Of a stretch of 17,485 nucleotides of DNA, positions 8,857 through 9,258 are shown one piece after another. The position numbers and the translations under genes are program-made. The notes under the pieces were generated by a model. It searched no databases. It was given only the letters and a program-made list of their open reading frames with translations, and was not told where the DNA came from. This DNA comes from an uncultured Roseburia sp. (GTDB lineage: Bacteria; Bacillota; Clostridia; Lachnospirales; Lachnospiraceae), in assembly GCA_945928585.1 (NCBI GenBank), contig CAMENQ010000010.1:1-17485 (forward strand), given 5' to 3'. The number at the start of each line of letters is the position of its first letter. Positions within the stretch are counted from its first letter, which is position 1.

Positions 8857-8885
8857 TTGATTTCAGAACATATGTTTGCTACAAT
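8857..8885 (+). promoter_or_regulatory. Promoter of the small-peptide mRNA, extended -10
   Basis: TTGATT (8857-8862), 17 bp, TGC-TACAAT with the -10 at 8880-8885. The start is predicted near 8892, at the edge of a TAGGC/GCCTA hairpin (8891-8905). The mRNA would therefore begin with a stem, a feature that protects RNA 5' ends, and carry a leader of about 140 nt. Confidence 0.65.
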
Positions 8886-8904
8886 GTATATAGGCTTTAT
8901 GCCT

Positions 8905-8941
8905 AAGGTGCTACTTCACATTGACGTGAATGGCGGTTCGC
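8905..8941 (+). repeat. Left inverted repeat flanking the small-peptide locus
   Basis: AAGGTGCTACT (8905-8915) and CGGTTCGC (8934-8941), separated by 18 bp that includes a TTCAC/GTGAA hairpin. The same two blocks in the same order, 5 bp apart, lie in reverse orientation at 9196-9219. Both the predicted mRNA and the predicted antisense RNA therefore carry the same sequence block near their 5' ends. Confidence 0.7.
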
Positions 8942-8950
8942 TTTTTGCGG

Positions 8951-9029
8951 AGAGTCTATAGCTCCGTTTCCAATGTAATCTTCGATTACATAAATACCCT
9001 TTGTGGAATTTTTACGGAAGGAGGACTCT
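8951..9029 (+). promoter_or_regulatory. Nested leader structure sequestering the ribosome binding site
   Basis: Three shells can pair. AGAGTC plus CTCC (8951-8956 and 8962-8965) pair with GGAGGACTCT (9020-9029), burying the Shine-Dalgarno bases. TTCCA (8968-8972) pairs with TGGAA (9004-9008). TGTAATC (8974-8980) pairs with GATTACA (8984-8990) around a TTC loop. An alternative outer pairing is TCCGT (8963-8967) with ACGGA (9014-9018). Delayed or processed-mRNA-only translation is typical of type I toxin messages. Pairing is seen by eye only; no energy was calculated. Confidence 0.6.
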
Positions 9030-9033
9030 GCTT

Positions 9034-9138
9034 ATGCTTACAATCGGTGACTTGATTGCAGTGCTTAGTCTCTGCTTAACCTCTTTTGGTCTTGGCTATG
9101 CGATTGGTTCCAATAGCAGTAAGACCACAAAAAGATAA
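9034..9138 (+). CDS. 34-aa single-span membrane peptide, candidate type I toxin
   Basis: Seen: ATG at 9034 with AAGGAGG ending 9 bases upstream, and TAA at 9136-9138. The peptide reads MLTIGDLIAVLSLCLTSFGL, then GYAIGSNSSKTTKR: an N-terminal hydrophobic stretch of about 20 residues and a polar, basic tail. Known: small hydrophobic peptides with a charged C-terminus, paired with an antisense RNA, include Fst, TxpA, BsrG and the Firmicute holin-like peptides. Inferred: the locus plan (folded leader, convergent antisense promoter, shared terminator) fits a type I toxin-antitoxin system. No specific family match is claimed; it might instead be a regulatory or leader peptide. The stop codon lies inside the terminator stem. 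Confidence 0.7.
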   Translation: MLTIGDLIAVLSLCLTSFGLGYAIGSNSSKTTKR

Positions 9139-9175
9139 CCGCCCTGTCCTGAGAAAACTTGGCGGTTATTTTTAA
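9135..9175. terminator. Bidirectional terminator shared by the peptide mRNA and its antisense RNA
   Basis: ATAACCGCC (9135-9143) pairs with GGCGGTTAT (9161-9169), 9 bp. A TTATTTTT run follows on the plus strand and ATCTTTTT on the minus strand, so it can stop both convergent transcripts. GGTTATT/AATAACC (9164-9180) offers a competing hairpin on the right side. Confidence 0.75.
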
Positions 9176-9195
9176 TAACCAATAAATTATATCAG

Positions 9196-9219
9196 GCGAA
9201 CCGTCATCAGTAGCACCTT
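9196..9219 (-). repeat. Right inverted repeat flanking the small-peptide locus
   Basis: GCGAACCG (9196-9203) and AGTAGCACCTT (9209-9219) are the exact reverse complements of the two blocks at 8905-8941, with a 5-bp instead of 18-bp gap. They fall in the 5' part of the predicted antisense RNA. Confidence 0.7.
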
Positions 9220-9229
9220 TTATACTATT

Positions 9230-9258
9230 ATAATAACACTGCTATCGTTTTATGTCAA
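9230..9258 (-). promoter_or_regulatory. Strong promoter of the antisense RNA
   Basis: TTGACA (9253-9258), 17 bp, TATTAT (9230-9235) on the minus strand, closer to consensus than the facing mRNA promoter, as expected if the RNA antitoxin is made in excess. No minus-strand gene lies between this promoter and the shared terminator. The stretch 9260-9400 holds nothing else recognisable. Confidence 0.75.

Follow-up and report, generated by a model that had tools for sequence, protein, structure and literature searches.

The stretch of DNA analyzed here (17,485 nucleotides from an uncultured Roseburia sp., referred to below as the window) contains two short, converging putative transcription units within positions 8857 to 9258. 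Scans of the sequence, its open reading frames (ORFs), and its promoters located every part that a sequence-only reading had described in this region, as follows.

8857 to 8885, plus strand: promoter of the peptide mRNA, TTGATT (8857-8862) and TACAAT (8880-8885) separated by 17 nt, with a TG extension, read from the sequence; transcription would start near 8892.
8892 to 8904, plus strand: 13-nt hairpin at the 5' terminus of the mRNA, AGGC-TTTAT-GCCT, from the sequence and the minimum-energy fold.
8907 to 8941, plus strand: mRNA 5' motif GGTGCTAC...GGCGGTTCGC, made up of hairpin P1 and GGCGGTT, a same-sense copy of the antisense 5' end, from inverted repeats and P1 covariation.
8948 to 8966, plus strand: leader hairpin P2, CGGAG...CTCCG, from covariation; the CTCC of its 3' arm can also pair with the GGAG of the Shine-Dalgarno sequence.
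8984 to 9012, plus strand: conserved GATTACAT and leader hairpin P3, upstream of the ribosome-binding site, from the leader consensus and covariation.
9018 to 9025, plus strand: Shine-Dalgarno sequence AAGGAGGA, read from the sequence; the consensus in 110 leaders is AAGGAGG.
9034 to 9138, plus strand: gene for the hydrophobic 34-aa peptide MLTIGDLIAVLSLCLTSFGLGYAIGSNSSKTTKR, the putative toxin, from the ORF, its homologues, dN/dS, and structure prediction.
9121 to 9223, minus strand: antisense RNA of ~97 nt, the putative RNA antitoxin, from a covariance model and covariation.
9135 to 9173, both strands: bidirectional terminator common to both RNAs, from an inverted repeat and covariation.
9196 to 9219, minus strand: antisense 5' hairpin (GGTGCTACTGATGACGGTTCGC), from an inverted repeat, a motif scan, and covariation.
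9230 to 9258, minus strand: promoter of the antisense RNA, TTGACA (9258-9253) and TATTAT (9235-9230) separated by 17 nt and scoring 11/12, from the sequence and its conservation.

The plus-strand promoter with its extended -10 element and the facing minus-strand promoter are both present, and the latter indeed appears to have no gene to serve: just two ORFs of at least 20 aa, of 21 and 28 aa, lie inside the minus transcript. A search of 1.4 kb found five promoter-like sites where shuffled sequences gave 4.0, a number not beyond chance; since both promoters are unexceptional when measured against shuffles, the case for the locus rests on comparison and conservation. The minus promoter scored at least 9/12 in 71/85 loci and the plus promoter in 63/86 (the window locus is counted in both), the chance rate for such a score being 7.6%, as measured on shuffled minus-promoter regions from the first 60 loci, and the promoter consensus of 110 leaders was TTG...TG.TATAAT. 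By eye, the conserved block of close homologues stops near both -35 boxes, outside of which their sequences show no relationship.

The 34-aa peptide is predicted to form one helix (residues 4 to 31, mean pLDDT 81), and its Kyte-Doolittle maximum is 1.91 over 19 residues. In alignment A1, GY..G is kept in all 18 members and the last residue is K or R in 17 of them. The locus thus encodes what is looked for in a type I system, namely, a small hydrophobic peptide with one membrane-spanning helix and a charged C terminus. Over 52 pairs drawn from 11 close homologues, dN/dS was 0.050/0.303 = 0.16, by which measure the peptide frame is under purifying selection. Reading alone had not matched the peptide to a named family, and this was borne out, the window peptide having no Pfam or NCBIfam match. 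Comparison of the 18 peptides with PHROGs (best E 0.011), NCBIfam (best E 0.0085), and PDB (best E 0.012) yielded nothing convincing; seven of the 18 were weakly similar to BcsF (best E 0.013), which also appeared in the PDB search (E 0.012). A Pfam similarity to Proton_antipo_N in 5/18 members (best E 0.00054) was taken as a likeness between membrane helices. In the protein collection, 39 entries were homologous to the 45-aa frame, and all of them lacked both a name and a Pfam domain. Among 14 close homologues examined by eye, a C-terminal frameshift was seen in L201 and L202, the leader is missing in L196 and L206, and the first part of the leader is missing in L198.

The terminator stem of 9 bp is formed by ATAACCGCC (9135-9143) and GGCGGTTAT (9161-9169) and is followed by T's. 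Its 5' arm holds the peptide stop codon (TAACCGCC), confirming that the 34-aa ORF ends inside the stem, and the final codons of the peptide supply the T-tract of the minus RNA. CCGCC directly follows the stop in 102/120 loci, and the last codon is AAA in 109/120 (AGA in the window); the conservation of both features indicates that the last bases of the toxin gene also serve to terminate the antisense RNA.

The minus RNA folds better than shuffled sequences (z -2.73). R1, a covariance model of the antisense RNA built on 51 rows, with the window locus (L001) among them, matches the window at 9121-9221 on the minus strand with 76 bits. In the antisense 5' hairpin and the terminator, the latter scored on alignment A4, 39 double-change cells were counted versus 16.2 in shuffles (0/500), and the number of paired cells was likewise reached in 0/500 shuffles. 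The 5' motif of the minus RNA was found within 5 mismatches in 86/133 loci, whereas the best match in shuffles had 12.0 mismatches on average, and the antisense RNAs across loci share GGTGCTACCGATAGACGGTTAGCCC, the linker, and the terminator. A minus transcript of about 95 nt that overlaps the mRNA at its 3' end only had been proposed; the coordinates predict ~97 nt, an overlap of ~50 nt, and complementary terminator hairpins. Sequence, conservation, and covariation together describe the predicted transcript as the product of an antisense gene that overlaps the toxin mRNA and has its own promoter and terminator. Rfam returned no match at the gathering score in the window, and the four matches obtained at E <= 5 were unrelated and all far below the cutoff. 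In a subgroup of ten loci (L064, L069, L092, L098, L110, L112, L113, L115, L116, and L131), the antisense RNA seems, by eye, to start with an extra hairpin of the GCATCTGTTnnnnCAGATGC type, located between the promoter and the common motif.

The predicted peptide mRNA, of ~285 nt, also folds better than shuffles (z -3.22), and R2, a covariance model of the leader, matches the window at 8911-9036. When the anatomy was compared over 133 distinct loci, the leaders were found to share the promoter, a 5' motif GGTGCTACC...GGTAGGCGGTTAGCC, hairpins P2 and P3, and AAGGAGG. Covariation supports P2 and P3 (60 double-change cells versus 20.6 in shuffles, 0/500) and P1 (11 versus 4.3, 0/500), with weak support for a second leader pairing, P1b. 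An attenuator-like alternative, in which GCCCUC:GGAGGG is combined with CUCC:Shine-Dalgarno pairing, was pairable in 91.9% of cells and was set aside, its covariation not exceeding that of shuffles. By eye, hairpins like that at 8892-8904 are built from other sequences in L002, L010, L012, and L020. The suggestion that the leader can bury its Shine-Dalgarno sequence holds in part: in the minimum-energy fold two helices hold the neighbors of the AGGA core (9019-9022), but the core itself is unpaired between them, leaving the site only partly buried. In L022, L023, and L162, the P2 loop is extended by an insert that contains a GTGCC...GGCAC hairpin and is alike between these loci (by eye), as if a small element had been inserted into the leader.

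Lack of conservation of the peptide frame and of both promoters among relatives had been named as grounds for abandoning the sequence-only reading; all three proved to be conserved. A profile of the 18 peptides matched 93/299 Lachnospiraceae genomes, sampled at nearly one per genus, with the weakest matches doubtful: L017 in G035 is a false match to a long protein-kinase frame, and other weak matches among the 93 also fall in long frames. The single-sequence search of 61 genomes, the window's own included, placed the peptide in 15, one of them the same false match; in this search the peptide was absent from 24 genomes of other families in the order and from 3/3 other genomes of the window's genus. 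Since these three congeners have no copy, the cassette is not a core function in the genus. By eye, one congener (L277 in G001) shows another gene order before a MerR-like regulator and has no cassette.

R1 matched 156/299 Lachnospiraceae genomes at E <= 0.01 and 53/130 genomes at E <= 0.001. In a class-wide set of 291 genomes, 19 were matched at E <= 1e-5, 7 of them in the same family (the window's own genome counted) and 12 in other families at weaker scores. A scan of GTDB species with the close peptide subset confirmed 361/428 pattern matches, and 80 were kept, the titles of which are mostly Lachnospiraceae or Clostridiales/Eubacteriales metagenome assemblies, with a few named isolates. 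Cultured carriers include Lachnospira eligens ATCC 27750 (L052) and Butyrivibrio sp. MC2021 (L256); another named carrier, Sharpea azabuensis (L252), lies outside Lachnospiraceae. L243 bears the title Candidatus Gastranaerophilales, probably because a contig was wrongly assigned in that metagenome assembly, and at the Lachnospira eligens match no gene is listed in a gene table that is incomplete. Copies of the cassette also occur on 18 IMG/VR contigs and in one phage record (E 1e-4), and the unit appears as one block between unrelated flanks, phage contigs included. The window's own genome carries a second complete cassette (L002, G000:C1:10945-11227), whose peptide is 64% identical, and a contig-edge copy (L003, G000:C279:1-139) consisting of only the antisense RNA and the C-terminal part of the toxin. 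On three contigs (G138:C69, G032:C14, and G010:C54), the cassette or its antisense half is present several times within a few kilobases.

Forty regions with an R1 match but no peptide match were fetched. They contained 43 antisense matches, 20 with a convergent R2 leader and 23 without, and 20/21 leader matches in them precede an ORF of 27 to 36 aa (two of these ORFs are identical). The leader match of L166 (20.3 bits) overlaps its own antisense match, has no ORF, and was counted as an orphan; R2 matches of 15 to 17 bits sitting on the antisense match itself (L177, L161, and the second of L173) were left out. Most of the swapped ORFs encode products that are hydrophobic, have a basic end, stop within the terminator, and are unlike the window peptide; MSDFELLSIMLMFVSILTSVLIAYINNTKK (L156) and MVTYSDLFQFGILIVATVGLVYKIVRNTKK (L189) are examples. 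The L189 peptide exceeds the Pfam gathering score for Hol_Tox (PF16935; 31.2 versus 23.3) and shows a weak similarity to PepG1, a type I toxin (NCBIfam E 5e-5, far short of the cutoff set for that model), and the L179 peptide is a near-miss for Hol_Tox at 22.1. By eye, a few swapped peptides, among them those of L186 and L194, may be distantly related to the window peptide. The L171 ORF, possibly a false one, lacks hydrophobicity (0.63), and the L183 ORF extends through the terminator arm. Judging from these regions, one RNA control chassis is used for different small hydrophobic peptides. Because R1 has matches in more genomes than does the peptide profile (156 versus 93 of 299), it provides a handle on toxins that peptide searches miss. 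The suggestion that the locus is an undescribed member of its class stands insofar as the family libraries searched have no entry for it, but understates the case, as the R1 count given above and the several different peptides attest. The locus is not named in the part of the literature that was searched.

Leaders and antisense RNAs do not always occur together. Among 130 genomes, 55/66 leaders had a convergent antisense match, 52 to 122 nt apart, and 11/66 had none. Of the six of these 11 that were inspected, three are cut by contig ends, and one (L130) has an antisense motif by eye, below threshold. At two loci of genome G028, L014 and L023, a leader and a toxin frame are followed by bases with no antisense motif; the sequence of L014 breaks off 87 bases beyond its stop, and the L023 frame runs past a lost terminator. 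Both look like genuine losses of the antisense half, a state not to be expected of an addiction module if no other antitoxin stands in. In the same genomes, 59/114 antisense matches had no leader at the thresholds used and 55 had one; since weak leaders fall below threshold, the orphan count is an upper bound. The leaders of L164 and L179, for instance, were detected only in a smaller search. A promoter scoring at least 9/12 was kept in 15/23 orphan antisense copies, compared with 20/20 paired copies and 10% of shuffles. By eye, remains of the toxin C terminus persist in three orphans (L167, L168, and L190), and a short hydrophobic ORF still precedes the second, leaderless antisense match of L173. 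The asymmetry leans towards the toxin being lost before the antitoxin, as far as the sequences indicate, although the pattern is not clean.

The two RNAs also resemble each other. In the window, 8905-8915 and 9209-9219 form an inverted repeat (11/11), as do 8930-8941 and 9196-9207 (92%); because these repeats are inverted, the mRNA and the antisense RNA carry the same-sense 5' sequence. Over 87 loci, distances between the two RNAs were correlated for the 5' arms (partial r 0.545) and for the 3' arms (partial r 0.584), each with 0/500 permutations, where the partial r takes account of the ORF and of the remaining leader sequence and corrects for ancestry only roughly; arms within one hairpin correlated less (0.225 and 0.097, 87 loci). 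In 16 loci outside the model alignments, a few of them close relatives, an exact 9-nt arm was shared in 8 versus 2.1 expected, and cognate arm identity was 0.856 versus 0.713 (0/2000 permutations). Explanations in terms of pairing energy were tried and rejected: the antisense 5' part showed no notable pairing with the leader or start region (duplex energy mean z -0.36, 87 loci, versus dinucleotide shuffles), strand exchange of the 5' hairpins gave a cofold gain of -2.81 at 103 cognate loci versus -3.17 in 817 non-cognate pairs, and arm-exchange energies were no better than those of permuted partners (195/2000 at least as good). We regard the concerted change as real but, with the cognate energies unremarkable, a strand-exchange mechanism for it as unsupported; shared ancestry, template switching between inverted repeats, and a common binding partner are all possible sources. 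Tentatively, and with more doubt than conviction, we suggest that a chassis serving exchangeable toxins across Lachnospiraceae has its same-sense hairpins kept alike by concerted change and that the antitoxin partly imitates the mRNA 5' end, either by using the same binding partner or by competition for a single site, in addition to antisense pairing.

Taken together, the conserved frame, promoters, and RNA structures support the type I reading as the best one, and we consider it very probable that the chromosomal cassette of ~400 bp at 8857-9258 is a type I toxin-antitoxin module composed of a putative toxin and an RNA antitoxin. The plus promoter would produce the ~285-nt mRNA, whose structured leader would hold back translation of the one-helix membrane peptide, while the stronger facing promoter would produce the ~97-nt antisense RNA ending at the same bidirectional terminator. 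The two RNAs could meet via their fully complementary terminator hairpins (~50 nt), and this pairing could mark the mRNA for decay or lock the leader closed. Were the antisense RNA to run out, the peptide would be made and would presumably disturb the membrane.

Alternatively, the peptide could be no toxin but a small membrane protein that has some ordinary role in regulation, such as transporter modulation, and whose level is tuned by an antisense RNA acting in cis. Toxicity is putative here, and the low dN/dS (0.16), the GY..G kept in 18/18 members, the weak likeness to parts of membrane proteins (Proton_antipo_N in 5/18 and BcsF in 7/18), and the two G028 loci that keep a leader and toxin frame without an antisense motif could all be accommodated by such a role. 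We nevertheless think it unlikely: a chassis that also carries other hydrophobic peptides, Hol_Tox included, fits a toxin slot better, and the frequency of antisense RNAs without leaders relative to the fewer leaders without antisense RNAs, the patchy distribution, the several copies per genome, and the carriage by phages all argue against it.

We likewise give little credence to the idea that the minus RNA is chiefly a trans-acting small RNA, with the peptide mRNA as one partner and the orphan copies acting on other loci. The leaderless state of 59/114 antisense matches and the promoter kept in 15/23 orphans would be in line with it, but where a leader is present its distance from the antisense RNA is narrow (52 to 122 nt), and remains of the toxin C terminus in some orphans are what the decay of a complete cassette is expected to leave. 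A mobile noncoding MITE-like element, with the inverted repeat GGTGCTAC...GTAGCACC as its ends and the ORF as a passenger or chance occurrence, is highly improbable: imperfect inverted repeats near both ends, unrelated flanks of close copies, and many copies, several per genome, would suit it, but conservation reaches past the repeats to both promoters, whereas in a transposon it would stop at the ends; selection acts on the ORF, and the compensatory changes follow the pairing of RNA hairpins.

If the toxin-antitoxin reading is correct, a toxin-antitoxin class present in 4 to 5 of every 10 sampled genera of a major gut family would have no RNA-library entry, and its main peptide would likewise have no entry in the protein libraries searched. 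The cassette would provide a natural case of toxin exchange under a single RNA control, its concerted same-sense 5' hairpins would raise a testable question about target recognition by antitoxin RNAs, and the orphan antitoxin RNAs would make it possible to test for protection against phages or plasmids bringing the module into the cell.

Several known systems invite comparison. The CD/RCd modules of Clostridioides difficile combine a convergent toxin gene and antisense RNA with membrane peptides of 34 to 53 aa, and several reside on prophages (PMC6563280); the present locus, likened to them by description, shares the convergent arrangement and the small membrane peptide, and the word Lachnospir- does not appear in that review. 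As for Hol_Tox (PF16935), the same chassis carries such a peptide at L189 and a near-miss at L179; the window peptide gave no match to this family, nor did the 18 aligned members up to E 10. With txpA/RatA and bsrG/SR4 of Bacillus subtilis, whose layout the sequence-only reading had assigned to this locus, it has in common a small hydrophobic peptide and an antisense RNA over the mRNA 3' end, their peptide sequences having been compared through Pfam and NCBIfam only. Those RNA pairs, however, share 100 to 140 bp (PMC6562991), in contrast to the predicted overlap of ~50 nt at a shared bidirectional terminator here, and the layout is closer to that of par/Fst. The par/Fst system (pAD1 RNA I/RNA II) has a 33-aa peptide, convergent promoters, a bidirectional terminator, and a leader structure near the ribosome-binding site (PMC7472228). 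The present locus has a 34-aa peptide, convergent promoters with one bidirectional terminator that gives rise to complementary terminator stem-loops, and, again, a leader structure near the ribosome-binding site. Two hallmarks of Fst/par were not found: the PXXXG(C) motif is absent from the 18 members of alignment A1, and no direct repeat of at least 9 nt corresponding to DRa/DRb, which in that family provide another complementary region close to the start of the toxin gene, joins the leader and the antisense 5' region in the window. On the best reading of its sequence, the locus would work most like Fst/par, yet without that motif and those repeats; unlike par/Fst, it has inverted in place of direct repeats in the window, and its chassis takes different peptides.
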